Notes: a model not told the origin generated them from the sequence alone. 64,000 bases of DNA from Agrococcus sediminis (GCF_007923295.1 NZ_VOIR01000011.1:372001-436000), one strand, 5' to 3'; positions 37,801 through 53,657 are shown, counted from the stretch's first letter. Program-made: numbers and translations.

Positions 37801-37843
37801 GGGGCTCCCCGTGCCTTGGTGGGCGGATGCGGTGGGTCGCCTT

Positions 37844-37867
37844 CTATTGTCTCACGTTGTCTGATAG
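37844..37867 (-). promoter_or_regulatory. Candidate regulator site upstream of metN
   Basis: Direct repeat TTGTCT at 37847 and 37857 inside CTAT...ATAG ends, 44-67 bp upstream of metN. It is AT-rich against its surroundings and well placed for a repressor or activator of methionine uptake. The protein that binds it is unknown. Confidence 0.4.
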
Positions 37868-37989
37868 CAGTGAAGGATGTGACGCCGTGTGACGCCCCGC
37901 CGCGCTGGTCGGGCGGGCCCCGAAGCGCGGTGCGTCGAGACCGGTTCAGGTGTCGCATCGCCGAGGCCAGCATCCGCGACCGGTGCGCC

Positions 37990-38433
37990 GAGCTCCAGCA
38001 GCGCGCGGGCGTCCGCGGCCAACTGCAGCAGCCCACCGCGCCAGCTTGGGGTCGAAGACGACGTTCTCGCCTTGCTCGTCGAGCTCCGTGAAGTCGGCGT
38101 ATCCGAAGAAGCCGTCGCCCCGGAACGCGGCTTGGAACATCACCGGCGCCCGCCCTGCGACCGCGTCGCGACGATCGCCGCGACCTGGCCTGCTGCGTCG
38201 AAGAGCTTCTCGATCTCGACGACCGGGCACTGCTGCCGCAACCCCTTGAGGATGCGCGCTTCATGCCGTTCGCCGGGCTCGGCGGTGCGCGCGAGCATCG
38301 CGTCGTCCTCAGGCGGCGGCCTGTCGCGGCGGCCCAGCTCGTGGTCGAGGCTCGCGAGCAGCTGCCACTCGCAGTTGCTTGCGACGGTGAGGTCGCTCGC
38401 GGTGAGCAACACGGTGTCGTGGTCGACGATCAT
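37990..38433 (-). pseudogene. Decayed N-terminal remnant of a TM0106-type RecB-like nuclease
   Basis: Minus-strand peptide pieces match the start of TM0106 family RecB-like nucleases in three frames. From the ATG at 38433: 'LLTASDLTVASNCEWQLL' and 'DDAMLARTAEPGERHEARIL'. After one shift: 'VMFQAAFRGDGFFGYADF' and 'VVFDPKLARW'. After a second shift: 'LLQLAADARALLELGAPV'. Only about 150 residues of a protein usually over 1000 long remain, and the 3' part is gone. It marks the left edge of the defence island. Confidence 0.7.
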
Positions 38434-38523
38434 CGACGCGATGCCTTCATCCTCCCGGGGAGTCGTCGCGCCGGCGCCTGTCGGCGTCGGGGGCGACGCC
38501 GTCGACGATGGCTTCAGTATGGG

Positions 38524-39675
38524 TCAGCCGGGTGACCCTGCGGCCTCGGCTGCCGCTACGCCGCGCTGGATTTGCGTCGCGATCGCGCGACCGAGGGGGA
38601 TCGGCACCGCGTTGCCGATCTGACGCGCGATCGAAGTCTTCGACCCGACAAACCGATGCGAGCGTGGGAAGCCCTGCAGCACCGCGGCCTCGTAGTGCGT
38701 GATCGCGCGGTTCGCGGTCGGGTGCAGGTAGCGCCCCTTCTCGGGCTTGAAAAACTCCGTGCGAATCGTCACCGAGGGGCGGTCCCAATGCAGACGTCCC
38801 ATGACGTCGGCCGATCCGGTGCGGTGGTTTTTCCAGCACTTGGGGAGCAGATCGTGGTCCTCTATCGAGAAGCGGTTGCCGCCCTGGGGGATCGCCTTGA
38901 AGCGGGCGAGCGAGAGCTCTGTGTATCGACGGCCGAGGTGCAGGTCTGCAGGTGCGAACATCGGCCGCCGCACACCGTCAACCAGTACGGTGCCGCGGGG
39001 CTCCACATGCGACAGCTCGATGGCGTCCACCGCCGCCGGGATGCCGACGAACGCCTCCGCGACAGTCGCATACGAATCGCGGTGATGGGTCGGTGTCGGC
39101 AGCGTCACCAGGGGCATGTCCCGCCGCGAGCCGATTACGATTGCGCGCTTGCGGGCCTGGAAGGCGCCGAAGTCCGCGGAGTTCAGAACGCCGGCTTCCC
39201 ACCGATACTCGGAGAGGGCGCCGCCGGGGGCCATGAGCGCTGTGAAGCTCGAGAACTGGGGGGAGCTGAAGAAGGCTGTCACATTCTCGACGACGAAGTA
39301 CTTCGGGCGGTAGCGCTCGATCGAGCGGGCGTACTCGCGCCAGAGCGTGTTGCGCTCGTCCTCCTCGTTCTGCTTCCCGAGCGTCGAGAAGCCCTGGCAC
39401 GGCGGACCGCCGACGACGATGTCGACCTCGAGCTGCTCGTCGAGCGCGAGCCATTCCTGGATCGGCCCGGCGAAGACGATGCCCTGGCCGAAGGTCGCGG
39501 TGTACGAAGCTGCCGCGTCTCGATCCCACTCGACGGCTCGCACGCTCTTGAACCGGCGTGACGCCGAGTGGAAGCCCGCAGTCAGACCGCCGGCGCCCGC
39601 GAACAGATCGAGCACGCGGATGCTCCCCACCGCCCGATCCACGTGCTCGACGGGGTGTCCGGGGGCGAAGGTCAT
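38524..39675 (-). CDS. DNA (cytosine-5) methyltransferase of the DISARM-like system
   Basis: About 383 aa from the ATG at 39675; in-frame ATGs at 39747 and 39804 are alternatives, and none has a clear ribosome site. m5C methylase motifs: I 'VLDLFAGAGGL', IV with catalytic Cys 'GGPPCQGFST', VI 'FVVENV', VIII 'QARKRAIVIGSR', then 'ALQGFP'-type 'VLQGFPRSH' and X 'IGNAVPIPLG'. It transfers a methyl group from SAM to cytosine C5. In DISARM class 2 such an enzyme (DrmMII) marks self DNA. It lies divergent from vsr. Confidence 0.92.
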   Translation of the reverse strand: MTFAPGHPVEHVDRAVGSIRVLDLFAGAGGLTAGFHSASRRFKSVRAVEWDRDAAASYTATFGQGIVFAGPIQEWLALDEQLEVDIVVGGPPCQGFSTLGKQNEEDERNTLWREYARSIERYRPKYFVVENVTAFFSSPQFSSFTALMAPGGALSEYRWEAGVLNSADFGAFQARKRAIVIGSRRDMPLVTLPTPTHHRDSYATVAEAFVGIPAAVDAIELSHVEPRGTVLVDGVRRPMFAPADLHLGRRYTELSLARFKAIPQGGNRFSIEDHDLLPKCWKNHRTGSADVMGRLHWDRPSVTIRTEFFKPEKGRYLHPTANRAITHYEAAVLQGFPRSHRFVGSKTSIARQIGNAVPIPLGRAIATQIQRGVAAAEAAGSPG

Positions 39676-39821
39676 GCCGGCGATTCTAGCCGGCGCGAGG
39701 GGAGCCGATCCGCGGCGCGCTGGATGCCTGTTGAAGGTCTCTGGCATCGACAGATCGAGGCTCGAAGCGGTGCGCGGAGACACGCGTATGCTCGGGGCAT
39801 GCACGCAGGGCGGGCATCACG

Positions 39822-40265
39822 GTGACGGCTCGAGCTGCGTCCGAATCCTGGGCGACCTCGGATGGTGCTCGCGCCTCGATGCAGGCAAACAGGCGTGCGA
39901 ACACCGGTCCGGAGCTCGCCGTGCGCCGCCTGCTCCACGCAGCAGGCTTCAGGTACCGCGTCGACTACCCGCCTCTAGCGGACTTCCGACGGCTGCGAGC
40001 CGACATCGTCTTCCCGCGGCGACATCTCGCCGTGTTCGTCGACGGGTGCTTTTGGCACGGATGCCCGGACCACTTTGTCATGCCAAAGGCGAATGCCGAG
40101 TACTGGGCGCGGAAGATCGCCCGCAACGTCGAGCGCGACGCCGAGACGACCGCACGGCTGATCGAACGCGGATGGCTCGTGCTCCGCTTCTGGGAGCACG
40201 AGCCTGCAGCCGAAGTGGCCTCCGCGATCGCACGTGCGATGCGGGAACTGAAGGGCGAGTGCTAG
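39822..40265 (+). CDS. vsr: Very short patch repair (Vsr) endonuclease family protein
   Basis: 147 aa from the GTG at 39822. 'WATSDGARASMQANRRANTGPELAVRRLLHAAGFRYRVD' is the usual Vsr N-terminus. The catalytic and zinc region is 'ADIVFPRRHLAVFVDGCFWHGCPDHF', followed by 'EYWARKIARNVERDAETTARLIERGWLVLRFWEHE'. Vsr nicks T:G mismatches that arise from deaminated 5-methylcytosine, and related proteins act as restriction nucleases. It is the only gene of the island core on the plus strand. Its TAG and the drmB TAG are both read from one CTAG palindrome. Confidence 0.93.
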   Translation: MTARAASESWATSDGARASMQANRRANTGPELAVRRLLHAAGFRYRVDYPPLADFRRLRADIVFPRRHLAVFVDGCFWHGCPDHFVMPKANAEYWARKIARNVERDAETTARLIERGWLVLRFWEHEPAAEVASAIARAMRELKGEC

Positions 40266-42091
40266 CCGCCAGAGGCCCCCATGATGGCGTGCCGACGCAT
40301 CTCGTCCATCGCGGGCGAGAACAGGCCGTCGATCTGGTCGTTGCCGACGACGCATGCGCGGTCAAGCAGCAGATTCGATGCTTCGCACGACGTCTCAGAG
40401 ATCAGCATGCAGGTGTGGCACGCCGCAAGGTTAAGACCCTGCAGACTCTGCGGGCCGGATTCCCGGCACACAGGGTCGTTGGCGCACCATTCGTGCCGCT
40501 CTAGGGCACGCGCGACGAGCGCGGCGAAGCGCTCCCTCTCACCCTGCCGGACGAGCCCGCCCAGGGTGCCCTCGAAGTCTGAGGTCGTCGTATAGATGAA
40601 GATCCCGGCATCTCCGCCTTCCCCAGCGTAAATGCGTTCGCGGAGTGATGCGGCTGTGAAGCCGCTGCTGAACGCGAGCTCCTGAATCAGCATGTGGGCA
40701 AGTCCGTGGAGCAGGACGTATTTAGGGGTCGCCTCGGGGAAGCGCGCCGCGAACGACGACGCCGCCTGGTTCTGCTTGACCTGAAGCACGCGTCCCTCGA
40801 CGCCGTCGGCCCGGCTCCACGCTTCGATCGCCTCGCCGTTAAGTCGGACGAAGATGCCTTCGCCCCAGCCCTCGACGGCAGGCAGCCAACGGGACTCCGT
40901 GGCCCGACCGAGCACAGCCGGAACCGGCTTCGCATCCATTCGGTAGCGGCGGAACTCCACTGCGGCGCGCACCTCGCGGAGCCGGTCGACGAGCACGACG
41001 TGCTCGAAGAGTCCGTTGAGGGGCGCAGATGGGCCAGCGCCGGCGAACGGCATGATGCGAGTGACGAAATTCTCGATGGGGGCTTCGCCCGCGGCCGCGG
41101 CTTCGAACGCCTCGAACTCGTCGCGGAGCAGGTCGCGACGGGCAGCGGCGAGCTGCAACGCGCCGGAGTCGTCTGCCACACGCAGGACTTGCTCCACAGA
41201 CCCGCCGACGTTCGCTGCGATGCGTTCTGCAAGCAGGGTCCGGAACGCATCTTCCTCTTGCTGCTGGAGCCCCGCGAACAAGGCATCTCGCTTGATTGCA
41301 TCTTCGACGGCCACCGCCCTGCCGACGACTTCGGGGATGTCGATCGCGCTGATCGACTCTCCGATGTGCAGGCTCGTCGCGCCGCGCTGCTGCACGACGA
41401 GAGCGGCTTCGCACTGCGCGGCGGCTCCCGCGCGCTGCCAGGGCTGTTTGCCACCGCAGCGGACGCCTGCGCCTCTCAGGCGGTTGCCGTCGAGCTCGTC
41501 GAACGCTCGAACGGCCTGGCAGCCTCCGCACCGCAGCTCAAGGCTCGCGAGTCCGAACCCGCTGTCGTTCGAGACGAACTGGATGTCGTGCTGCGGATCG
41601 CAGGAGTCGGGCACCGGGCCCGCGTGCAACCACCTCGGCCAATCCACATCCTGCACATGCGAGTGGTCGGTGCAGCCTGCGACAAAACGCATCGGGACGA
41701 GCCGGCCGGAACAGGAGCAGAGCGGCATTGACCCATCGTCGTCCGCGGCACGGAGCCGTTGCAGGCGTCGGCACTTCTGGCAGAACAGCCAGCTCGGGAA
41801 TCGTGAGAATGTCAGGCGCATACCGACTCCGCGGCTGCTCTCCCCTTGGCTCGGAGCTGCGTAGAGCTTTGTCACCTGAAGCCGCTCCGACAGACGCTTG
41901 CACTCGACCTCGTTGAGGAAGCGTTCGCTCGGCCATTCGTCTCCCGTCGGGGCCATGAACGATTCGCCCAAGATGTCGATGATTGCTCCCGGTCCATACG
42001 GTCCGACAGTCTCGGCCAGACGAATCGCGCGGTCTCGTCCGGCGTCTGCCGGACGAGTCGCCCGCTTCCTGGTCTTCCGATCTCCCGTCAT
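40262..42091 (-). CDS. drmB: DrmB-like protein (DUF1998)
   Basis: 609 aa from the ATG at 42091, overlapping the drmA stop (ATGA). N-terminus 'IRLAETVGPYGPGAIIDILGESFMAP' is typical of DrmB. A Cys-rich zinc segment follows ('FCQKCRRLQRL', 'PLCSCSGRLVPMRFVAGC'). DUF1998 occupies the C-terminal ~150 residues ('KYVLLHGLAHMLIQELAFSSGF', 'GIFIYTTTSDFEGTLGGL', then 'NLAACHTCMLISETSCEASNLLLDR' with conserved Cys). DrmB forms a complex with the DrmA helicase in DISARM. Confidence 0.9.
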   Translation of the reverse strand: MTGDRKTRKRATRPADAGRDRAIRLAETVGPYGPGAIIDILGESFMAPTGDEWPSERFLNEVECKRLSERLQVTKLYAAPSQGESSRGVGMRLTFSRFPSWLFCQKCRRLQRLRAADDDGSMPLCSCSGRLVPMRFVAGCTDHSHVQDVDWPRWLHAGPVPDSCDPQHDIQFVSNDSGFGLASLELRCGGCQAVRAFDELDGNRLRGAGVRCGGKQPWQRAGAAAQCEAALVVQQRGATSLHIGESISAIDIPEVVGRAVAVEDAIKRDALFAGLQQQEEDAFRTLLAERIAANVGGSVEQVLRVADDSGALQLAAARRDLLRDEFEAFEAAAAGEAPIENFVTRIMPFAGAGPSAPLNGLFEHVVLVDRLREVRAAVEFRRYRMDAKPVPAVLGRATESRWLPAVEGWGEGIFVRLNGEAIEAWSRADGVEGRVLQVKQNQAASSFAARFPEATPKYVLLHGLAHMLIQELAFSSGFTAASLRERIYAGEGGDAGIFIYTTTSDFEGTLGGLVRQGERERFAALVARALERHEWCANDPVCRESGPQSLQGLNLAACHTCMLISETSCEASNLLLDRACVVGNDQIDGLFSPAMDEMRRHAIMGASGG

Positions 42092-45000
42092 CGCTGCCGC
42101 CCTACCTTGATGCCCACCGCGCGGTCGACGGACCGCATCGAGTTCATCGCGGGCCAACCCGGGCCCGCATCGGTGAAGCCACGCAGCAGCCGCCGATCCA
42201 TCTCGGTCGAGTCGAAGCGCAACGCACTGCCGGACCTCGCCGCGCGGTCGCGCATCTCCTGCCAATCGAGCGCGGCACGCTCCAGCTCACGTCGCACCGC
42301 GTTCTGCTCCGTCGGGTCGGCGAACGTCGCGTGCGCGAGCAGACGCTGCACAGCGGTCGCCGTCTGGATGGACTTCGCATCAAACGCTGCCGCGGACTCG
42401 TTGGTCCGCAGCCCACCTGCTTGACGCATCACGATCACGAGCGCGGCGCGAAGCGCGCGCATGCGCGCTTGCAGCGACCAAGGGGTCACCGATGCCGGCT
42501 CCACGAAGCGGTAGTAGGACTCATGGAATTGCCTGAACGTCTCGTATATCGATCGATCACGCGCCTTCGACGATCGGTACAGGGCGACCACGAGGCCGGG
42601 CACCTTCGCGCGCCCCACGCGGCTGGTGGCCTGGATGTATTCCGAGGTGGTCTTCGGCTGTCCATTGACGACCATGAGGCCCAATCGGCCCACATCGACG
42701 CCGACCGACAGGATGTTGGTAGCCGCGACCGCGTCGAGCGCGGACTCGCGCGGGTCTCCTCGTTCCACCTGCAGACGACGGAGAAGATCGGCGAGCTCCC
42801 TCGCATCCAGGTTGCCGTTCAGCTCTTCGACATCCGCGGCGTCGATGCGCCTAGACGGCGAGCCGTCTCCAGTCGCCGGGGCGTTCTGCATCCGCGTGGC
42901 CACGTCATCGCGCAAGCGCGTGACCGATCTGCCCAGCTCGCGGAGGGAGTTGTGGTACACCACGAGCGTCCAGTAGGCGTCACGCTCGACGTCGGAGAGC
43001 GCGAGGCGCAGCGGCGCCTGGAGGATGCGCTCGGCGATCTGGCTGAACGCGTACTCGGGGGTGTGCGCCTGCGGCATCAGGCCGAGGTAAAGACGGCCCG
43101 GGGACTCGCGATCAGGGGCGGCGAACCAGCTTTCATCCGCCTTCAACCCGGCTGGGGGGAAGACCTCGACGTCCGCGGCCATCAGCTCGCGGACCTGCTG
43201 CGTGGCTGCACGAACGGTCGCCGTCGAGGCCACCACCTTCGGAACCGTCCCGCGCCACCCCCAGATTGTGCGGAGCGCTGCTTCGTAGGTGCCGACCACG
43301 GTTCCCAGCGGGCCCGAGATCAGGTGCAGCTCGTCCTGGATCACAAGCGAGGGAGGATCATAGATGCTTGCGCCGAGTCCGAACAACTCCGCGCCGTCAT
43401 CGATCCAGGCGAGTCGCGCGAACTTGTCGACGGTGGCGATCAGGATCGAGGGCGGGTCGCGGTAGATCGCCTCGTCGACGACCTGCATGGGAAGTCGGTC
43501 GTGGAACGGGCACTCGGGATGCGGGCAGAAGATCGTGAATGATCGGTCCGTTGCGCGGAAACCGTAGCGGCCCCGGTCTGGGCTTTGGAACTTGGGCACG
43601 AGAGCGGTCCGGCACCAAGGGCAGTTGAGCACCTGGAACGGGTTCTCGGGATACCGCTGCTCGAGGAGATCGTCGAGTGCGCGCTCCGCGCGCGCGAACC
43701 GGCCGGGTGTCGCGTTGTTTCCGATCCACAGCCCGATCGTGAAGGGCGCGCAGCCAGCGAGTGCCGGTTCGGTCGTGCGGAGGCGCTCGAGGGCGCAGAT
43801 CAGGGTCGAAGCGCGCTCGAACTGCTGGGCCGTCAGCAGTCGCATCGTGTACCGGGTGATGACCGCGGTCCCACCTCCGGCGATGCCGCGCACGAGGCGT
43901 CTCCTGATGAGCTCGGTCGCGGCGAGGCCCAGGTACGCTTCGGTCTTGCCGCCGCCAGTCGGGAACCAGACCAGGTCCACGAGCGCCCGGTCGTCGTGGC
44001 TCGCGTCCAAGGTCGAAGGGAGGGCGAGCAGGATGAAGCCGAGCTGGAATGGCCGCCATCGCGGTTCGAACGGCGCGGGCGCGACACTGAGCGGCGCGCC
44101 GAGCTCGCCTGGTGCCTCGCGCGCACGGTGCTGTTGCACCATCTGGTCGCGCATCGCGCGGTTGGCCAGTCGGAAGGCCTGCAGGACGATCGGATCCTCG
44201 CGGAGGATCTCGATTCCCTGGCGCATCCGATCGCGTGCTCGCTCCTGGCGGGCGACGATCTCCTGCGCCGAGTTGGCGCGCGAGCCGGCGAAGGATCGAG
44301 CGTCTTCGCGCTGATCGCGAGCCCATTGGGAGTACTCGTCGACCAAACCGTCGAGCGCTGCGGCGAGCTCGGACACGTGCCTCCGATCGTCTGCGAGCCA
44401 GTCCATGCGAAGCCGGTCGGTTTCGTCTTCGCGGGCCTGGATCGAAGGGACCTCGAATGACGGAGCGGTGTCGCTGCGGATCGATGCTGGCGGGCCGTCG
44501 AACTGCTCGTCCCACGTCACCGACACTCCGTGACCGACTCCGTACGAGACGCGGTCGCGGTATCGCAGATCGAGTTCGCGGTCCTCGTGGTCGCCTGCAG
44601 CGATTTGCAGCGTCGGATACGGTTCGAGCGATCCGTCGACCGGCTCGGCTTCGAGCTCGACCTGGAAGAGGCACTTCGAGGCGTCGAGTTTCGCCTCCTT
44701 CGGGCCCACCTCCGCGGCATTTGAAACGGACACCGTGACGAGGGACCTAACGCCGACCGATCGAACGCGCCAGGCGACAATCGCGCGGCCGTCGAGGACG
44801 CTCCGCCGCCCGCTCGGGGTCTCGATATCGAGGACCTCGGCCAGAGTGCGCCGGCTCCAGCTATAGCGTGGGCGAGGATCGGCCTGATCCTCGCCTGAGT
44901 CTGCTCCGCCGTGAGGCTCGTAGAGGCCGGCGCGCAGCGAGACTCGCACCCGCTTCCCGTTGTGGACGAACGAGGCGCCCATCGACGTGGGAGCGAACCC

Positions 45001-45270
45001 GAAAGCGCCCGTCAGGTCGTAGTCGCCCTCGTCGTCATCGGCGTCTTCGACGGGGTCCTCGTCATCTGTGCCGTCATCGCCCACCGCATCGTCGAATCCC
45101 TCGAGCTCGGCTTCGGTCGCGCATTCGGTCTCACCGGTTTCGACCGGGAACAATGCGCCGACGAGGTAGGCGTAGATCGGATTTCGTTCCAGCAGCTCGT
45201 CCTCGCCGCCGACGGGGCCACGCACGACCGAGGTGATGTGATCTGCGAGTCGACGGTTGCTATCGTTCAC
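42088..45270 (-). CDS. drmA: DrmA-like SF2 helicase
   Basis: 1060 aa from the GTG at 45270, overlapping the preceding stop (GTGA). An acidic insert (residues ~50-85) sits in the N-terminal domain. Walker A is 'VWFPTGGGKTEAYLG' (~residue 438), motif II is 'LVIQDELHLISGPLG' (~643), then 'VASTATVRAA', and the C-terminal helicase block is 'LSVGVDVGRLGLMVVNGQPKTTSEYIQATSRVGRA' (~855-890). The unusual QDELHLI box and large spacing match DISARM DrmA. A four-Cys/His-like segment near 560-590 ('CPWCRTALVP', 'CPHPECPFH') may bind zinc. Confidence 0.92.
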   Translation of the reverse strand: MNDSNRRLADHITSVVRGPVGGEDELLERNPIYAYLVGALFPVETGETECATEAELEGFDDAVGDDGTDDEDPVEDADDDEGDYDLTGAFGFAPTSMGASFVHNGKRVRVSLRAGLYEPHGGADSGEDQADPRPRYSWSRRTLAEVLDIETPSGRRSVLDGRAIVAWRVRSVGVRSLVTVSVSNAAEVGPKEAKLDASKCLFQVELEAEPVDGSLEPYPTLQIAAGDHEDRELDLRYRDRVSYGVGHGVSVTWDEQFDGPPASIRSDTAPSFEVPSIQAREDETDRLRMDWLADDRRHVSELAAALDGLVDEYSQWARDQREDARSFAGSRANSAQEIVARQERARDRMRQGIEILREDPIVLQAFRLANRAMRDQMVQQHRAREAPGELGAPLSVAPAPFEPRWRPFQLGFILLALPSTLDASHDDRALVDLVWFPTGGGKTEAYLGLAATELIRRRLVRGIAGGGTAVITRYTMRLLTAQQFERASTLICALERLRTTEPALAGCAPFTIGLWIGNNATPGRFARAERALDDLLEQRYPENPFQVLNCPWCRTALVPKFQSPDRGRYGFRATDRSFTIFCPHPECPFHDRLPMQVVDEAIYRDPPSILIATVDKFARLAWIDDGAELFGLGASIYDPPSLVIQDELHLISGPLGTVVGTYEAALRTIWGWRGTVPKVVASTATVRAATQQVRELMAADVEVFPPAGLKADESWFAAPDRESPGRLYLGLMPQAHTPEYAFSQIAERILQAPLRLALSDVERDAYWTLVVYHNSLRELGRSVTRLRDDVATRMQNAPATGDGSPSRRIDAADVEELNGNLDARELADLLRRLQVERGDPRESALDAVAATNILSVGVDVGRLGLMVVNGQPKTTSEYIQATSRVGRAKVPGLVVALYRSSKARDRSIYETFRQFHESYYRFVEPASVTPWSLQARMRALRAALVIVMRQAGGLRTNESAAAFDAKSIQTATAVQRLLAHATFADPTEQNAVRRELERAALDWQEMRDRAARSGSALRFDSTEMDRRLLRGFTDAGPGWPAMNSMRSVDRAVGIKVGRQR

Positions 45271-48200
45271 GAACGCTCCCAGAGGTCATCGAATTGCGTG
45301 AACGCGAGGTCCTCCCCGAACTCCGCGAACGTGTCTTCAACATTCACGATAAGGCAGCGCTCTGTGCCGCCGTTCGCTGGCCCGCGCAGCGCGCGGCCCA
45401 CCATCTGGTGATAGCGATTGGGCGAGTATGTGGGCCGGGCGATATAAAGCGCCTCGACCTGGGGTGCGTCGAACCCGGCTGTGAGCAGGTCGCAATTCAC
45501 CAGCACGCTGATGTGGCCGGCTTTGAACTTGTCGATGACCTCTCGACGCTGCTGCTTGCGCATGTCGCCGTCGACGGCCAACGCGGATCGGCCGCGAAGG
45601 GTCAGCAGCGCGGCCACCGTGTGCGCTGAGGCCTTCGACGGCGTGAACACCAACGTCGGCATGCTCGCATCGCGTCGGAGGATGTCGTCGACGAGGCGGT
45701 TGGTCCGGTCGTGGTCGCGGCCGAGCTGCTGGAGCATCGACTTCGGGATGTCCTTCAGCCGCTCCCACTCCGCGATCTGCGCCGGCGTCGCGATGATCGT
45801 CGCACCGGTGAGAATCTCGTGGTCGGGTTCCGAGAGCACTTTCCGCTGCCGGAGAGTGACGTGGAACTCGTCGGCGTTCTCACCAAGGACGCCGGGCTGG
45901 AGGAGGTTGTTGTCGAAGCGGTTGCGGAACCCTTCGTTGACGTCGGGGTTCCGCCCTTTGTACGGCGTGGCGGTGAGCCCGAGCAGCGGGGCCGGCGTTT
46001 CGCGCCCCGTTCGGTAGCCGAACCAGTCGAGGACTGCGGTGTAGGTCGGGTTGAACGACCGGTGCGCCTCATCGATGACGACGAGGGCGGGTCTGCGCAT
46101 CCACTCGAGCGTGACGGCATCCGGTGCGCCGAAGCGCGCTCGCAGCGTGTCGTCGGTCGCGACGATGACCTGCGGGTCGTCGTCAGCCTCGGTGATTCCG
46201 CGGCCGCCCCAGAAGCGCGAGATGTGCAAATCGCGGCCCGGCACCTCGGCTCCCCAGACCTCGGCGAACGCTTCCACGGCCTGTTCGCAAAGCTCTTCGG
46301 ACTGCGCGATCCAGACGACCGGCCCGCTGGAGCTCGCGTCGATTTCGCCGTCCTTGATGAGCGAAACGATCGACTGCACCGCGACTCGCGTCTTGCCGGC
46401 TCCCGTGGGCAGGTAGAGCAGGCCCCTCTTGCGCTTTTTCTCGCCCTTTCCATCCAGCACGAGCTGGCGCACCTTACCGAACAGCTCCTGCTGGAAGTCG
46501 TGCAACGGGTTCAGGTCGATGCGACCGCGCACGCGTTCGTAGGCCGCAGGACGCTCCATACGCCGGCCTGCATAGCCTTCCTCGAACCCCAGGCGTTGCA
46601 CGAACTCGCGCGCGGGCTTGCTGCCCGCCCATGAGTCAGGTGGGTCGAGTTTGAGCTTGCGCAGCTCTTCGCGGAGTGAGTAGAGCGAGTCGAACGACTC
46701 GACCCGATGGAACAAGACCGCGACATCTTCGTCGCTCTGCGTGCCGTCGCGGGCCTCGAGCGCATCGAGCAGGCCGGTGGGGAGCGCCTTCCGAAGCAAG
46801 TCGCCGCCGACCAGTCGCAGCAGCTTCTGCTCAGGCGTCGGAAGGCTGGCCACCTCGGCGATCAGCTTGCTCCGCTTCGCAGAATGCGCTGCCTCGACGA
46901 TGCGCTCGGCCTCGTCGACCCTGAGCGGCTGGCCCGCGGCTGCGGAGATCGCGCGCAACCGTTCGGCCTCCGTGCCGTCCTCGAACCGGCGGACGAGCGT
47001 GACTAGGCTGCCCTCCCTATGCGATGACAGCTCCTTCGGCTCGACGCCGCCGGGGGTCCGGGTCTTCTTCACGATAGACGATGCGAACTGCACATCGAGT
47101 TCCACGAGGTTCGGGGCAAAGCGGTCGAGCATCGGGTATAGGTCGGACAGCGGCATTGGCTCGTCGTACGCATCGACTTCGAACCAGCGGCTGACCGCGT
47201 CTGAGCTGCGTTGGATGCCCCAACGTTCGACGAGCGCGGAGACGTCGAGGTCACCGGCGACCAGCACCGGCGTCCGAAGCGCGGTCAAGTGCTGCAGGTC
47301 CTCATCGGAATCGGCGATGAGCACGTCGTGGACGTTGGTCAGCTGCACGACGCCGTTGCGCAGAACGGGGATCTCGGACGGGACCCGGATCGACTTCCGG
47401 CTCGCGGCTTCGGCCAGCAGCTCGGTCAGCGATGTCGGTTGCGTGCAGACGTATGCCTCGCGTCTCAGGAATCGCTGCAGCAACGGGACCGACAGGTTCG
47501 CGAGCGTCCGCGGCCGGTCAAGATCGACGGTGTAGTCCTGCTCGGCGACGGGAAGGAGTTCCTTGAACCGGGCGAGTTGCGGTCCAACGGTCTCCGCGAC
47601 CGGCTTCGCGCCAAGCGAGGTTGTGAGGTGCCCGTGCTGCCGAATGGCCCACGCCTCAGGCCCGAGCCATTCGAACTCGGCACTCTTGCCCGAGGCGAGC
47701 TTGACGCTCAGCGCGGTAGTTGTCGCCATGGGCGCGTCCAGCAGTGCCCGGGTCCAGTCCGCGCGCCCTTCGGGCGTCGCCTCGATGAGGATGTCGAGCG
47801 GGCCGAAACCCGTCCGTTCGCCGAGCGCGAGCGATCGCAGTTTTTGACCGTGCTGCGCCGCGGCAGCCTCGGCATGCGAACGCGCTGCGCTGGTGTACTC
47901 CGCGAACACCGATTCGCGGTGCATGGGAAAATTCTGGATGGGGCGCTCCAGGACACCGGCGGCGCGCAGGACCTCGATACGGGGATGGCGAGCGGTGTCG
48001 ACGACGCGTGCGTCGGGCAGATTGCGCCAGCGCTCACCGACGACGACCTCGGCAGCAGGGCGCCACTCACCCCCTCGAGTCAACACCCTTATCTCGATCT
48101 GGCGCGACTTCAGCTTCTGCGCGGCCGAGACCGCAGTCGAGAGCGGCGCAGTGCGCTCGCGGGCCCAGAAAGCCTCCCACGTCTGGACGTCGGCGTTGGG

Positions 48201-49955
48201 CCGAATCGTCGACGCCAGAGCGATCAGCAGCTGCTCATCGGACGCCTCTTTGAAGCCCATTTTGAGCAGGGCGTCACGGTAGGAGATCGACCAGGTCGGA
48301 TCGATCTTCGCGATTGCGAACCCGTCTGGCTTTGCTGCGTTCTTGGTCGGCAGCAGCACCGAGTCGGTCTGCGTCGGCGACGCCCATGCCCCGGACTCAA
48401 GGGGCACGATCGCCGCGCCACGGCCCTCGAAGTCAGCGTTCGCCTTCGCCTTCAGGCTCGCATAGAGATCAAACGAGGTGATCAGTGCGTCCTCGGTGCC
48501 GAGCCTTGCCAGTTCCTGCAACCAGCTCGAGATCGACACTTCGTGCTGGCTCGGCTGCTCCGCGTCCTCGCGGAACAGAGCACGGGTGCGGACAGACCGA
48601 TCGTTCTTGTAGCAGGAATGATGCGGCATGTTCTGCCGTGGAGACAGCTTCTGCCACGCGGCGACATCCGACGGGGTGAGATCCGCGGCAAAGGTCGGGG
48701 GGCGCAGGGCCTCGGCTACGCGCAGCTCGCCGGTTACATCAGGGATGACCGCGCGTGAGCGCGCCACGATGGGGATGCGCGCGCTGAGGAACCGGTCGGC
48801 AGGACTCCGGAACTCCTTGCCTCGAGCGGGAAAGAAGTCGAGATGCCGACCCGGCTCGTCCGGGGTCGAGAGCTCCTGAATGGTGTCGAGGAACAGCTCG
48901 ATCGACTGTTCGAGGAGCGCGGCGTTCAACCTGCTCTCGTGCACGGGCATCATCGTGCGTCGGTCGTCGCTCACGTCCCAAGGCGCGTTGAAGATGCCGC
49001 GTACGGTCGTCTCATCCTGCAGCGGCAACCAACTCCAGAACTGCCCGAGCGGGCGTGCGGCCGAGGGGTCGACTGCGTAAGCGATCGTCATGCGCTCGCG
49101 TCGTTTGGCCGCGCTCAACGTGGCCAGCACCTCCGGCGTCGGCGAGTAGGGCACCTCGCGGTACAGGAAGTGCTGGGCATCGCCGCCCGCGATCTCGATC
49201 GTGACGCGCCCGGGCGTGTCTGTGCGCCTGCGGTAGGTCGATCGACCAAAGCCGCCCCCGAACGCGGCGAGCGTAACCGTCAACTCTCGGATCCCACGGG
49301 TGAACAGCAGTAGCTTTCCGTCGAATTCCGCGAGCTCCTTACGGATCCGATCGCCCTCACGCTGAAGCGGCAGCCGCACGATAGTCGTCGCCCATCCGGC
49401 CAGTTCGGCCAAATTCGGGTCGGCGGCGAACTCGGCCTCATGATCGATGATCGTCGGCACACGCATCGCAGGCAGCGCCTGTTCGTCGCCTGCGATCTCT
49501 CGGAGAGCATCGCTCGCCGCGGCGCTGTTGAACTCGAACGACACCGAGCGGGAGAAAATCTGGGGATGTGCGGTGACGGCGAGCACCGACTTGAAGCCGA
49601 TGCCGAATTTTCCGATCTCATCGCCTCGCTTGGGGCTGATAAACGCGTAGCACACGGCCTCCAGTCCTTCGCGGCTGAATGGTGCTCCTTGGTTCGCCAC
49701 GTAGAGATGCCCCGCGGCCATCCGGAACTCGACCTTGCCCTCGTCGGGGTGGTTGCCGTGGGCATCGACCGCGTTCTGCAGCAGCTCCGGGATCTGTCTG
49801 GTGCCATAGCCGCCCCGTTGCCACTCCTCCTCCTGGCCCGCGTGCTCGCGCAGGAGGTTGAGGTCGCGTCGGTAGTTCTCGAGTGCGCGAGCCTCCTGCG
49901 CCCCGACGAAGTCGACCAGGTCGGGATCGGCTGCGGGCCAGATCGAAGTCGTCAT
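45267..49955 (-). CDS. GHKL (Hsp90/MORC/sacsin-like) ATPase fused to an SF2 helicase
   Basis: 1562 aa from the ATG at 49955, behind AGGAGGACTCG. Residues ~50-260 are a GHKL ATPase: 'IPELLQNAVDAHG' (N box, ~55-67), 'YVANQGAPFS' (G1, ~85-94) and 'GKFGIGFKSVLAVT' (G2, ~115-128). A ~900-residue middle region has no obvious motif. Residues ~1180-1562 are an SF2 helicase: 'LPTGAGKTRVA', 'VVIDEAHRSF', 'GLTATPYKGR', 'LVFTPSKASAHTV' and 'YSPNRYHQMVGRALRG'. Both motors appear intact. First gene of a coupled set with drmA and drmB. Such fusions occur in restriction-type systems; the exact role is inferred. Confidence 0.88.
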   Translation of the reverse strand: MTTSIWPAADPDLVDFVGAQEARALENYRRDLNLLREHAGQEEEWQRGGYGTRQIPELLQNAVDAHGNHPDEGKVEFRMAAGHLYVANQGAPFSREGLEAVCYAFISPKRGDEIGKFGIGFKSVLAVTAHPQIFSRSVSFEFNSAAASDALREIAGDEQALPAMRVPTIIDHEAEFAADPNLAELAGWATTIVRLPLQREGDRIRKELAEFDGKLLLFTRGIRELTVTLAAFGGGFGRSTYRRRTDTPGRVTIEIAGGDAQHFLYREVPYSPTPEVLATLSAAKRRERMTIAYAVDPSAARPLGQFWSWLPLQDETTVRGIFNAPWDVSDDRRTMMPVHESRLNAALLEQSIELFLDTIQELSTPDEPGRHLDFFPARGKEFRSPADRFLSARIPIVARSRAVIPDVTGELRVAEALRPPTFAADLTPSDVAAWQKLSPRQNMPHHSCYKNDRSVRTRALFREDAEQPSQHEVSISSWLQELARLGTEDALITSFDLYASLKAKANADFEGRGAAIVPLESGAWASPTQTDSVLLPTKNAAKPDGFAIAKIDPTWSISYRDALLKMGFKEASDEQLLIALASTIRPNADVQTWEAFWARERTAPLSTAVSAAQKLKSRQIEIRVLTRGGEWRPAAEVVVGERWRNLPDARVVDTARHPRIEVLRAAGVLERPIQNFPMHRESVFAEYTSAARSHAEAAAAQHGQKLRSLALGERTGFGPLDILIEATPEGRADWTRALLDAPMATTTALSVKLASGKSAEFEWLGPEAWAIRQHGHLTTSLGAKPVAETVGPQLARFKELLPVAEQDYTVDLDRPRTLANLSVPLLQRFLRREAYVCTQPTSLTELLAEAASRKSIRVPSEIPVLRNGVVQLTNVHDVLIADSDEDLQHLTALRTPVLVAGDLDVSALVERWGIQRSSDAVSRWFEVDAYDEPMPLSDLYPMLDRFAPNLVELDVQFASSIVKKTRTPGGVEPKELSSHREGSLVTLVRRFEDGTEAERLRAISAAAGQPLRVDEAERIVEAAHSAKRSKLIAEVASLPTPEQKLLRLVGGDLLRKALPTGLLDALEARDGTQSDEDVAVLFHRVESFDSLYSLREELRKLKLDPPDSWAGSKPAREFVQRLGFEEGYAGRRMERPAAYERVRGRIDLNPLHDFQQELFGKVRQLVLDGKGEKKRKRGLLYLPTGAGKTRVAVQSIVSLIKDGEIDASSSGPVVWIAQSEELCEQAVEAFAEVWGAEVPGRDLHISRFWGGRGITEADDDPQVIVATDDTLRARFGAPDAVTLEWMRRPALVVIDEAHRSFNPTYTAVLDWFGYRTGRETPAPLLGLTATPYKGRNPDVNEGFRNRFDNNLLQPGVLGENADEFHVTLRQRKVLSEPDHEILTGATIIATPAQIAEWERLKDIPKSMLQQLGRDHDRTNRLVDDILRRDASMPTLVFTPSKASAHTVAALLTLRGRSALAVDGDMRKQQRREVIDKFKAGHISVLVNCDLLTAGFDAPQVEALYIARPTYSPNRYHQMVGRALRGPANGGTERCLIVNVEDTFAEFGEDLAFTQFDDLWERS

Positions 49956-50114
49956 CGAGTCCTCCTAGGTGCATTCGGGCGCACTTCACAACATAATCAG
50001 CGCCACTGACACGCGGGGGTCCAGGACACCGCGCAAGACGCAATTCTGATCCTAAACTTTCGGCGGCAGCGGAAACCGTTGTGCGACGCGACAACTCGGT
50101 CGCAATCGACGGCC

Positions 50115-51032
50115 TCACACGGAGTGCAGGCGCCAATGCTGACCGAACCACTCCCGCTGGCCCGAGCTGAGCGGAAGCTGCAGCGGCGCACCATCCAGCT
50201 CTATGTAAGGGCGGAAGTCGCGCGCCTCGCCGCGCACGACGATGCGATCACACTCCGGTTCGACGGTGAGCTGACCAAGATCCAGCAGCGAACGGACATC
50301 GCGCCGCAGCAGCGCGAAGTCCTTCGACTTCGATTCGCCGGCGGCATCGAAGCGGCTGAGCGCTGCGGCGTCCAGCGTCGCACGTGGAGACGTCCCGACG
50401 AACAAGCAGGTGCTCCCGAACCGGTCCAGTAAGCGCTGACGTTCTTCCGCCGGCGCAGTTCGGACCCGCGCGCTGCGGCGCAGCGCGGTGTCCTGCACCT
50501 TACCTCCGTGAAGGCGGAACATCTGCTCGACGAAGCCCCCGAGCGCGTGCTCCACGCGCTCGGGCACGAGCGGCCGCATGCTCTGGATGCTCAGACGTGC
50601 CACGCAGAGCTTCTGTAGTTCGGCCCGATCCATCAAGCCGGGGAGCGGAAGCCATCCCGCGCCGTGCTCGGAGGCGAACTTGCGCACAATCGGAGTGCCG
50701 GTCACAGGCTCCTCGAATTCCGACCTGCAGCTGGGACGAGTGCACCGGTACCGCGGCACCTTTCTCGTGCGGAACGTCAGCTTCGGCGTGTTGCACACCG
50801 GGCAGCGGAGCGTGAGCTTGTAGTCGTGCCACTCGGAGATCGAGTCGATAACGGAGATGCCGAGCAGCCCTTCGCCATCGCGGATCAGGACGACGTCGCC
50901 CACGGCGACTGACGTCGCATGCGCGACGGTCTCGTCCCATTGGTATGTCGAAGCGACCTCGTCCGCATACCCGGTGTGGCCCGCGTACTTCCCCGTGCCG
51001 CTGGCGGAGAGCAAGAGCCAGTAGTTCGCCAT
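50115..51032 (-). CDS. EVE/PUA-like protein with zinc ribbon and degenerate HNH domain
   Basis: 305 aa. Residues 1-70 ('MANYWLLLSASGTGKYAGHT', 'VAVGDVVLIRDGEGLLGISV') resemble the EVE-like domain that reads modified bases in restriction proteins. A CxxC-type ribbon follows ('LRCPVCNTPKLTF', 'YRCTRPSCRSEF'). The C-terminal ~110 residues look like an HNH endonuclease: 'LLDRFGSTCLFVG', 'TLDAAALSRFDAAG', 'FALLRRDVRSLLDLGQL', 'SGQREWFGQHWRLH'. The usual catalytic His residues (AAHL and DLHRLFD) are Ala and Arg here. It lies 160 bp upstream of, and codirectional with, the GHKL-helicase gene. Confidence 0.7.
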   Translation of the reverse strand: MANYWLLLSASGTGKYAGHTGYADEVASTYQWDETVAHATSVAVGDVVLIRDGEGLLGISVIDSISEWHDYKLTLRCPVCNTPKLTFRTRKVPRYRCTRPSCRSEFEEPVTGTPIVRKFASEHGAGWLPLPGLMDRAELQKLCVARLSIQSMRPLVPERVEHALGGFVEQMFRLHGGKVQDTALRRSARVRTAPAEERQRLLDRFGSTCLFVGTSPRATLDAAALSRFDAAGESKSKDFALLRRDVRSLLDLGQLTVEPECDRIVVRGEARDFRPYIELDGAPLQLPLSSGQREWFGQHWRLHSV

Positions 51033-51244
51033 GACGCTCGCTTTCGATGATCGGGCCCGTGTCGGTCATCCTTGCATTTCGGTGCATTCGAAGGTTGGCG
51101 TGAGCCCAGCCGGACCCGACGTGTCAGTGACGTCACAGGACTGACTCCTCCCATCGCCGGAGACCAACGCAGGCGGCGAGACCGGCGCGGGCCGCATCCG
51201 CAGAAACCGTCGGAACCCTGGAACGTGAGGAGACGGAGAAGGCT
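51033..51244 (-). promoter_or_regulatory. Upstream region of the defence-island operon
   Basis: No gene is supported here. It holds a perfect 10-bp palindrome GTGACGTCAC at 51127-51136, about 95 bp upstream of the first minus-strand gene, which could be an operator for the island. Confidence 0.3.
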
Positions 51245-51790
51245 GATGCCGACCAGACCGCTCTGCACATCTGCCCGGCCGCTCGGGGTCGATGAACGGC
51301 GTCCGCGACGAAATAGTCGGCGCACTGGAGCACCTGCTCAAAGGAGCAGGCCGCCCAGCCGGGGCTGCTGACCGTCGACGTCGTCACCTTCCACGACCGG
51401 ATCGCGCACACCCTGAGGGCCGCACTCGAGGACGTCGCGATCGAGCTCGTGCCCGCGGCGGCACTGCGCTCTACGACGCCGTCGGCACCGACCTCAACAG
51501 CTTCGGCCAGCGCATCGAGGCGTTTCCCCGAGGAGGCGAGGCTGGCGACCGTGCAGGTCGTCATCGTCACCGACGGCTTCGATAACCGCTCGAATGAGTA
51601 CAACGCGACCATCGTGCAGACGCTCGTGCAGCGCCAGCGCGACAAGGGCTGGGAGTTCGTCTTCCTCGGCGCCGACAGGGACGCCGCGCTCGTATCCCGC
51701 GGCCTCGGCATCGACGCGGCCAGCGCGATCGGGTTCACGCGCGACGCTGGCAGCATCCACGGCACCATAGCCGTACCAGCGTGCGGCTCA
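51245..51790 (+). pseudogene. Frameshifted remnant of a von Willebrand factor A (VWA) domain protein
   Basis: Plus-strand pieces in different frames assemble into a VWA domain: 'GSMNGVRDEIVGALEHLL', 'LLTVDVVTFHDRIAHTL', 'GGTALYDAVGTDLNSFGQ', 'VQVVIVTDGFDNRSNEYN' and 'KGWEFVFLGADRDAALVSRG'. The first shift falls near 51350 and the next near 51460; the MIDAS start (DxSGS) is degraded. No intact copy is present. It marks the right side of the island. Confidence 0.65.
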
Positions 51791-51905
51791 CCGAGACGAG
51801 GCGACGTGGGCGGCGGAACGGCAGCAACGCCGAGACTCGCCCCAGGGGCGAGGCGACGACCGCTGGCACGCCTTCGCGCTGAGACGTACCAACCGCCTTC
51901 GGCGC

Positions 51906-53657
51906 TCAGCGCTCGAGGGCGAGTCCCTCGAGCGAGGTGAGCACGACCAGCCGCTCGGTCGCCCGCGTCGCGCCGACGTACAGGAGGTCCTGCCAGTTCG
52001 GGGTCGAGTCGTCGACGTCGGTCAGCACGACCACCGGAGCCTCGAGCCCCTTGAAGAGGTGCACGGTGCCCCATCGGATGCCGGGGCCGTCCGCATCGTC
52101 GGGCGCCAGCGCATCCGCCACCGTGCCCGTCGCGCCGCGTGCAGCGGACGCCCGGCGCGGGGAGAGCACGAGGATGTCGCGCGGTTCCCAGCCCTCCTCC
52201 CAGAGGTCGCGCAGCACCTGCTGCAACAGCTGCTGCTGGTGCCAGGCGCTGTCGAACCTCAGCGCCTGGCCGCACTCGCCGCCCAGCTCGGCGCGCTCGT
52301 ACTGCGCGTAGACGTCGTCGCCGAGCAGCTGCTCGACGAAGGCGGCGAGCTCGGGGCGCTGGCGCACGTTGCGGGCGACGGCCATGCGGCCGGCGTCGGG
52401 GATGCGCGTGAGCAGGAGGTCGCGCCGGGTGAGGGTGGTGGTCTCGAGACGCGTGCCGCCTGCGGCGGCGCGCTCCTCGACCGGCGAGGGGGCGGCGGCT
52501 GCGCGCGGGCGGTAGATGTCCTGCCCTTCGAAGTCGCCGGCCACGACCACCCGCGCACCGGCGAGACCGCCCACGAGCAGGCTGTCGAGCACATCGAGGG
52601 TGGAGTCGCGCGCGAGGTCCTGCGCCTCGTCGGCGACCACGCAGGTGTAGGGCGGCTCGAAGCCGGGCGCACGTGTGATCGAGAGCGTCGCGTCGGGCAG
52701 GGTGCCGTTCCACCACGCATCGTCGGCGTCGTCAAGGGGCGTGAGGTCGGTGAGCGCGAGCATCAGGTGGTGCACGCGGGCGACGGTCAGCTCGGATCGG
52801 TCGCGCAGCCGGTGGCGCAGCTCGGCCTCGAGCTTGCGGTTGAAGCATGTGAGCAGCACGCGCTCGTCGCGGTTGGCAGCCTGGAGCGCCGCGCGCACGG
52901 CGATGTTCGTCTTGCCGGTGCCGGCCGGCCCCTCGACGACGAGCCGCGGGTAGTGCGCGAAATACTGCAGCGCCTCCTCCTGGCGCTCGGTCGCCTCGCG
53001 CAGGTCGCGCTCGCGGGCGGCGCGGGCGTCGGCGCTCGCCTGCCGCCACGTCACCGGCGGCGTCAGCAGGTCGCGGGCCTCTGCGATGTCGTCCTCGGTC
53101 GGCCGCCCTGCCTCGTAGCGCACGCCCCGCGCGCGCAGCTCGCGCTCGCCGGCGCGGAGCGCCTTGACGATGCCCGTCACGAGCCTGTCGGGCTGCAGGT
53201 CGGGCCGGGTCAGCGTGACGTCGGGCGTGACGTCGACGCGAGCCTCGAGCTGCTTGACAAGCTCGCCGCCGCGGTTCGGGAACCACACCGCGTGCCAGAT
53301 CGGGTACCGCGGGTCGTACGCGCGCCGCAGGATCCACGAGCGCAGGCTCCTCGCGTTCTCGATCGCCTGGTCATAGGGGGAGCGGGATGTGGGTTCCTGG
53401 CTGCCGAGTCGCCACAGCCCATCCGCGCCGATCTCGACCCGTTCGTGCGACTTGACCTCGATCACGAGCATCCCCTCGCTCGGGATCAGGATGACGAAGT
53501 CGGCCTCGCCCTCCACCTGCGTCTCGTGGTGGCGGATGGGCAGGCCGTGCCAGACGACCCAGTCGGAGGTACCGGCGTGGTCGCGGAGCGCCTCGTAGAC
53601 GCGCAGCTCGCCGGACGGAGCGCCGAGGCGCGGCTCCGGAGGGATCATCGTCGCCAT
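51906..53657 (-). CDS. NERD domain / UvrD-like (SF1) helicase
   Basis: 583 aa. NERD nuclease-related domain at residues ~15-140 ('EGEADFVILIPSEGMLVIEVKSHERVEIGADGLWRL'). SF1 helicase motifs follow: 'VVEGPAGTGKTNIAVRAAL' (Walker A), 'LLTCFNRKLEAELRHRL', 'CVVADEAQDLARDSTLDVL' (Walker B), 'VAGDFEGQDIYRP' and 'TVHLFKGLEAPVVVLTDVDDS' with 'LYVGATRATERLVVLTS'. Residues ~390-407 are encoded by a copy of the Microbacteriaceae-type repeat. NERD-helicases are common near mobile and defence loci; their role is unclear. Confidence 0.9.
   Translation of the reverse strand: MATMIPPEPRLGAPSGELRVYEALRDHAGTSDWVVWHGLPIRHHETQVEGEADFVILIPSEGMLVIEVKSHERVEIGADGLWRLGSQEPTSRSPYDQAIENARSLRSWILRRAYDPRYPIWHAVWFPNRGGELVKQLEARVDVTPDVTLTRPDLQPDRLVTGIVKALRAGERELRARGVRYEAGRPTEDDIAEARDLLTPPVTWRQASADARAARERDLREATERQEEALQYFAHYPRLVVEGPAGTGKTNIAVRAALQAANRDERVLLTCFNRKLEAELRHRLRDRSELTVARVHHLMLALTDLTPLDDADDAWWNGTLPDATLSITRAPGFEPPYTCVVADEAQDLARDSTLDVLDSLLVGGLAGARVVVAGDFEGQDIYRPRAAAAPSPVEERAAAGGTRLETTTLTRRDLLLTRIPDAGRMAVARNVRQRPELAAFVEQLLGDDVYAQYERAELGGECGQALRFDSAWHQQQLLQQVLRDLWEEGWEPRDILVLSPRRASAARGATGTVADALAPDDADGPGIRWGTVHLFKGLEAPVVVLTDVDDSTPNWQDLLYVGATRATERLVVLTSLEGLALER
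52437..52486 (+). repeat. Microbacteriaceae-type repeat embedded in the NERD-helicase gene
   Basis: GGTCTCGAGACGCG at the left and CTCCTCGACCGGCG at the right flank a GCCGCC/GGCGGC dyad. It closely matches the intergenic copy at 63708-63750 but lies wholly inside a coding sequence and keeps its frame. Confidence 0.75.

Follow-up and report, generated by a model that had tools for sequence, protein, structure and literature searches.

Does a gene cluster that has drmA and drmB, but lacks drmC, encode a DISARM-like defence system, and which of its neighbours belong to that system? The question is raised by a locus of Agrococcus sediminis, situated on contig C1 of a high-GC genome of 2.74 Mb. 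A stretch of 64,000 nucleotides around the locus, called the window here, was analysed. A reading of the sequence alone had proposed a distinct DISARM subtype or a hybrid with GHKL/MORC-type restriction systems, with a GHKL ATPase-SF2 helicase fusion, a Vsr nuclease and an EVE/HNH protein in place of drmE and drmC. We find that the GHKL-helicase, DrmA and DrmB form a conserved core, which we regard, with a probability of roughly 0.6, as a putative restriction-like, anti-phage system related to DISARM whose mechanism we infer.

Organization of the locus and its insertion site

From high to low coordinates, the minus-strand genes encode the EVE/HNH protein, the GHKL-helicase, DrmA, DrmB and an m5C methylase (Table 1). 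The gene content and coordinates of the sequence-only reading were correct, including the vsr gene on the opposite strand and the coupling of the three core genes into an operon. The drmA start overlaps the stop of the GHKL-helicase gene (GTGA at 45,270), and the drmB start overlaps the drmA stop (ATGA at 42,091).

Table 1. Features of the putative defence island and its flank in the window.
Feature	Coordinates	Strand	Evidence and remarks
Island in metNI-adjacent hotspot	37,943-51,905		Left limit uncertain by ~150 bp
m5C DNA methyltransferase	38,524-39,804	-	PF00145 185 bits; catalytic motifs intact; probable self-marking, possibly GCCGGC-specific
Vsr-type endonuclease	39,822-40,265	+	TIGR00632 124.8 bits vs 97.85; tail-to-tail with drmB
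DrmB, 609 aa, MZB/DUF1998 domain	40,262-42,091	-	NF038324 386 bits (cut-off 240); PF09369
DrmA, short form, 1060 aa	42,088-45,270	-	NF038325 850 bits; 7s9v match
GHKL (sacsin/Tiamat-type) ATPase + RadD/ResIII-like SF2 helicase fusion, 1,562 aa	45,267-49,955	-	Hallmark gene of the system
EVE-like/zinc-ribbon/degenerate HNH protein, 305 aa	50,115-51,032	-	Accessory, predicted nuclease-dead; homologues HNH_2
NERD-UvrD helicase, flank of island	51,906-53,657	-	Conserved flank gene in genus; 73% GC; not counted as dedicated component

Homology to congeners stops at 37,808-37,942 and picks up again at 51,926-51,937. The GC content of the island genes is 66-68%, compared with 71-75% in the surroundings. 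The region 5' of metNI proved to be a variable hotspot across the genus, a feature beyond the view of the sequence-only reading. Its cargo in congeners includes DCM, NaeI, EVE-HNH, YprA fragments and Vsr, and several congeners have different defence or R-M cargo at this site (window 37,808-51,937; L198-L212). In many of them a NERD-UvrD helicase gene borders the site. At 51,133-51,880 on the plus strand, a decayed von Willebrand A domain gene, broken up by several frame changes, was read by eye; the pieces SGSMNGVRDEIVGALEHLL... and VVIVTDGFDNRSNEYNATIVQTL... are in different frames.

DrmA, DrmB and the GHKL-helicase

The top NCBIfam match of DrmA was NF038325 (DISARM_DrmAS), with a score under the equivalog cut-off of 950. 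The solved Serratia DrmA (7s9v) was matched over nearly the full length (E=1e-138), and the motifs PTGGGKT (Walker A), QDELH and QATSRVGR are intact. An acidic stretch, with 21 Asp/Glu in 40 residues, occupies the published position of the trigger loop.

The predicted 1,562-residue protein upstream of drmA combines an ATPase and a helicase, as claimed before. Its N-terminal ATPase matched the sacsin domain NF047352 (74.8 bits, cut-off 50). The N-terminal half also matched PADLOC TmtA, which we take to be Tiamat, at E=6e-47 over residues 13-645 only, and the C-terminal half matched ResIII and Helicase_C. The GHKL and helicase motifs are intact and conserved. The 780-residue middle module (window 46,506-48,848) gave a confident structural model (pLDDT 91) with no significant fold match in the PDB or among viral structures (BFVD), so that a known nuclease fold did not emerge, and the idea of a nuclease hidden in this protein was rejected.

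Full-length GHKL-helicases were found in 4/296 genomes of the phylum and 11/297 genomes of the order. A single-sequence scan of genome contigs returned nothing. Viral scans with queries P0001 and P0004 were likewise empty, and query A1 gave short GHKL matches only.

The search for DrmC and other DISARM genes

A DrmC HMM, validated by its recovery of held-out DrmC genes in control loci, had zero matches in the window. The PLD genes of the genome are on contigs C12 and C19, with none on the contig of the window. The earlier statement that no drmC is visible was thereby borne out, and the flanks of the proposed gene set did not supply one. Among the GHKL loci the HMM matched only L021, which also has separate DISARM genes, plus a weak match in L082. 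The island proteins did not match the drmD and drmMI references taken from L141/L142, and none matched DrmE in PADLOC and NCBIfam scans.

Vsr is the only nuclease in the island that appears intact. It often travels with m5C methylases and is not a constant partner of the core; no effector nuclease constant across the loci was seen. DrmC is dispensable for DISARM, and DrmAB may act through a replication block (PMC9142583).

Conservation of the core

A GHKL-helicase profile was used to draw 79 organism-named loci, 80 with the window. They are mostly from Actinomycetota, heavily Streptomyces, and also from Acidobacteriota, Chloroflexota, Latescibacterota and Pseudomonadota. DrmA was counted when its match was long enough, which was the case in 69/80 loci of this GHKL-helicase-based sample, window included. 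The GHKL-helicase is upstream of DrmA, co-directional and within 3.5 kb in 68/69 of these. In 66/67 scorable plus-strand pairs, DrmB starts either in overlap with the DrmA stop or at most 10 nt after it. A second draw from the order of the window yielded 10 further genomes with a GHKL-helicase, and adjacent DrmA and DrmB were present in 10/10.

The proposed subtype or hybrid therefore held for the core of GHKL-helicase, DrmA and DrmB, with no DrmC, but the full gene set failed as a unit. Of the genes expected to co-occur with drmA, Vsr did so in part (47/69 DrmA-bearing loci), and the EVE/HNH protein, found in 2/80 GHKL loci and otherwise in unrelated contexts, did not. A fixed unit of EVE protein, Vsr and GHKL-helicase was rejected for this reason.

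A counted DrmA is missing from 11/80 GHKL-helicase loci. At L056 of Rhodococcoides corynebacterioides, and at L011, the GHKL-helicase is accompanied by a UvrD helicase, an EVE-like protein of 542 aa and an ARMADA-like YprA protein of 2238 aa, which seems to replace DrmAB. At L012, genes for Vsr, AIPR-like, DUF4420, Z1-like and GHKL proteins are beside a stand-alone SF2 helicase, DrmB and DrmA. This helicase corresponds to the C-terminal half of the GHKL-helicase, giving the same functions in split form. A divergent trio precedes the operon in most Streptomyces and relatives, ~50/80 loci (L022-L091, e.g. L051:5177-9182). Its products are a DUF6339 protein, an HTH protein that has GHKL-like motifs and an unknown protein of 331 aa, and it is possibly a regulatory or second restriction module.

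DrmAS-type proteins were found in 27/296 genomes of the phylum. Their neighbourhoods are either classical (drmD, drmMI, drmA, drmB, drmC) or DrmC-less, and in many DrmC-less loci an SF1 helicase is directly upstream of DrmA. DrmC-less DrmA has several partners, among them the GHKL-helicase and a sigma-70 domain protein, so the GHKL-helicase strongly predicts DrmAB, but the converse fails. The sigma-70-type neighbour, seen in DrmC-less Streptomyces-type loci, has sigma-70 regions 2-4 and a long extra region; it or a relative adjoins DrmA at L137:8129-11950, L157, L158, L160 and L164.

Quick maximum-likelihood trees were made with a short search and no bootstraps. In the DrmA tree the window fell together with GHKL-linked loci in a clade of 11 rows (SH-aLRT 100). 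Its DrmA thus stands outside the clade linked to DrmC, and the nearest sequence is that of Microcella, at 52% identity. The GHKL-helicase tree gave a corresponding 11-row clade (100), the NERD subtype.

SF1 and NERD-UvrD helicases

The relatives also have an SF1 helicase that the sequence-only reading had no occasion to see. Between the GHKL-helicase and DrmA there is a UvrD-type helicase in 60, a NERD-UvrD helicase in 6 and nothing in 2 of 68 loci. The last two are the window and Microcella pacifica. The NERD-UvrD gene in the flank of the island was at first favoured as the dedicated SF1 component, since 3/5 of its homologues in other genera abut DrmA (G016, G050, G120). It was dropped after comparison of congeners and is treated as a flank gene, because copies of 63-87% identity border the same hotspot in at least 6 congeners without DrmAB. 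With the sister-subtype NERD helicases it shares only ~26% identity. The homologues that abut DrmA leave a small chance that it is recruited in trans. On plasmid P4 of Deinococcus gobiensis (L139), a NERD helicase, DrmA, DrmB and an AAA protein are encoded near Vsr, DUF2357 (McrC-type) and DCM.

The methylase, Vsr and the EVE/HNH protein

An adjacent m5C methylase had been noted "as in DISARM class 2". The methylase is indeed there, but the class label is loose because PADLOC scored it higher as DruM (302 bits) than as DrmMII (170 bits), closer to DruM/type II enzymes, and because its family includes methylases linked to NgoMIV or NaeI. Its identity to methylases adjoining NgoMIV (L015, L065, L159) or NaeI (L016, L018) genes is 44-48%, and a NaeI gene is also beside a family member at L081. 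NgoMIV and NaeI both cut GCCGGC, and with these genes adjoining its relatives the best guess for the site of the methylase is GCCGGC. No NgoMIV or NaeI match was found in the window as a cognate endonuclease. The observed/expected ratio of GCCGGC in the window (0.91) is uninformative on avoidance.

The methylase is present in 58/69 DrmA-bearing loci, in varying positions, and absent within the fetched flanks of 11/69. Of the 69 loci, 44 have methylase and Vsr together, 14 only the methylase, 3 only Vsr and 8 neither of them.

Homologues of the 305-aa protein belong to HNH_2 (PF13391) and have a zinc ribbon. A profile of the protein and its homologues matched ScoMcrA at its N-terminal end and 6yex (VcaM4I) across the HNH region. 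The description of this protein as EVE/zinc/degenerate HNH was upheld in its HNH part. The conserved His positions are gone, as is the glycine preceding the second motif (EAAHL in homologues is DAAAL here, and GGLLxRRDLHRLFD is DFALLRRDVRSLLD), and the window copy is predicted to be nuclease-dead. For the N-terminal EVE fold, the Pfam EVE model was unmatched and the AlphaFold model was poor (pLDDT 37). This rare accessory occurs elsewhere beside DCM and restriction genes (L134, L201), or on plasmids without either.

Comparison with known systems

The locus shares with DISARM the coupled DrmA and DrmB genes, an adjacent DNA methylase and an island location. It differs in the lack of DrmC in the window and of DrmD and DrmMI in the island, in having a GHKL-SF2 helicase, usually with an SF1 helicase in relatives, in place of the DISARM partners, and in a DrmA that scores below the DrmAS equivalog level. 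Since DrmAB is shared but DrmC, DrmD and the clade placement failed, we call the system DISARM-related, and not DISARM as defined.

ARMADA type II (Bell et al. 2025, PMC12458937) combines an SF2 helicase, a methylase, a YprA-type and a UvrD helicase, and all four genes are essential; a Vsr-type nuclease domain is a further likeness. However, its YprA is one fused protein, its SF2 partner is BrxHII/RapA-like, its methylase is PglX-like, and a GHKL domain is not described. In R-M operons of the MORC/paraMORC type (Iyer et al. 2008, PMC2292703), GHKL ATPases occur with SF2 helicases, DCM and Vsr, and a joint action of MutL/MORC-type ATPases, SF2 helicases and Vsr/MutH-like nucleases was proposed. 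The likeness is one of gene content; the window differs in having DrmAB and in the fusion of helicase and GHKL ATPase into one protein. Tiamat is homologous to the N-terminal GHKL half, but the match does not extend to the C-terminal helicase or include the DrmAB partners. The EVE-HNH type IV endonucleases VcaM4I and ScoMcrA resemble the 305-aa protein in profile, but the window copy is without the HNH catalytic residues.

The open-access literature that was searched has no description of a GHKL-helicase-DrmAB operon, and the arrangement looks like a branch, so far undescribed, within a known defence family. It may be one of the many "uncharacterized DISARM-like classes" mentioned by Bell et al. 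(PMC12458937).

Proposed mechanism

Serratia DrmAB is an ATP-driven complex that loads on 5'-overhang ssDNA, is autoinhibited by its trigger loop and is less active on methylated DNA (PMC9142583). In the proposed model, the m5C methylase would mark host DNA, and the acidic trigger-loop-like segment would hold DrmAB off. On unmarked incoming DNA, DrmAB would load on ssDNA or 5'-overhang stretches as the Serratia complex does. The GHKL ATPase, presumably a MutL/Hsp90-like clamp fused to a RadD-like helicase and taking the place of DrmD/DrmE, would then join DrmAB and drive translocation and unwinding, with assistance from the SF1 helicase in most relatives. Replication of phage DNA would be blocked, and the DNA would be open to nicking by Vsr or host nucleases. 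The EVE/dead-HNH protein, if part of the system, may be a reader of modified bases, not a nuclease.

Alternative explanations

The reading as a defence system draws on the linkage of the GHKL-helicase to DrmA, the coupling of DrmA and DrmB, the second draw and the matching tree clades. It draws further on the frequency of the methylase, the hotspot cargo in congeners, the parallel with ARMADA type II (PMC12458937), DrmAB biochemistry and the dispensability of DrmC (PMC9142583), and the GHKL R-M operons (PMC2292703). Counted against it are the loci without a methylase and its variable position, the lack of an SF1 helicase in the window, the lack of a constant nuclease, a sample that is GHKL-helicase-based and mostly actinobacterial, and the many DrmC-less DrmA loci with other partners. 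Some of these points suit a narrower machine of GHKL-helicase, DrmA and DrmB only, beside a remnant of a type II R-M system whose methylase and Vsr would guard against an outside restriction enzyme, or repair m5C deamination, and give no self mark. The company of the methylase family with NgoMIV and NaeI genes fits this explanation, as do the changes of side and strand of methylase and Vsr among loci; the methylase is on opposite sides of the operon in the window and in Microcella. We consider it rather unlikely, since the methylase is kept in most loci, usually without a restriction gene recognised by the queries used, and the methylase of the window has the same GC content as the core.

It is improbable that the NERD-UvrD helicase-nuclease of the flank is the missing SF1 component and effector nuclease, acting in trans. 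Its gene starts the same way round as the operon and 0.9 kb upstream of the gene for the EVE protein, and besides the homologues that abut DrmA, a NERD helicase is encoded between GHKL-helicase and DrmA in the sister subtype. However, its copies in DrmAB-less congeners, its host-like GC content and its low identity to the sister-subtype helicases point to a resident of the hotspot border, and the Microcella locus has none. A DNA-repair or housekeeping operon of the MrfAB/YprA type could be imagined, as DrmA is a YprA-family protein and repair relatives exist for RadD, UvrD, Vsr and GHKL proteins alike. This is very unlikely for genes that are sparsely distributed, lie in a low-GC island at a defence hotspot and find their best matches in DISARM DrmA, not in repair helicases. 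The least credible explanation is a chance pile-up of a decayed DISARM reduced to drmAB, an unrelated Tiamat-like helicase and an R-M remnant. Hotspots do gather fragments, drmC is missing and the HNH is predicted dead, but the core has intact catalytic motifs, start/stop overlaps and its linkage across several phyla, and for the core this linkage has already refuted a chance origin; the EVE protein and Vsr may still be chance neighbours.

Implications

Beyond the DISARM-related reading, we tentatively entertain a separate class of DrmAB immunity, in which a MutL/Hsp90-type GHKL-helicase with its unmatched 780-residue module replaces DrmD/DrmE and DrmC. If this is true, the logic of very-short-patch repair, with an m5C mark, a GHKL clamp, a UvrD helicase and a Vsr nick, would have been turned to the restriction of unmarked DNA. 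Apart from this, the conserved core shows DrmAB to be a module that works with different partners, and it gives the DrmC-less DrmA genes a concrete and widely conserved context. The means by which DISARM destroys DNA, given that DrmC is dispensable (PMC9142583), become testable in a DrmC-less branch that keeps a GHKL-helicase. The branch is also a defined handle on the uncharacterized classes of PMC12458937.
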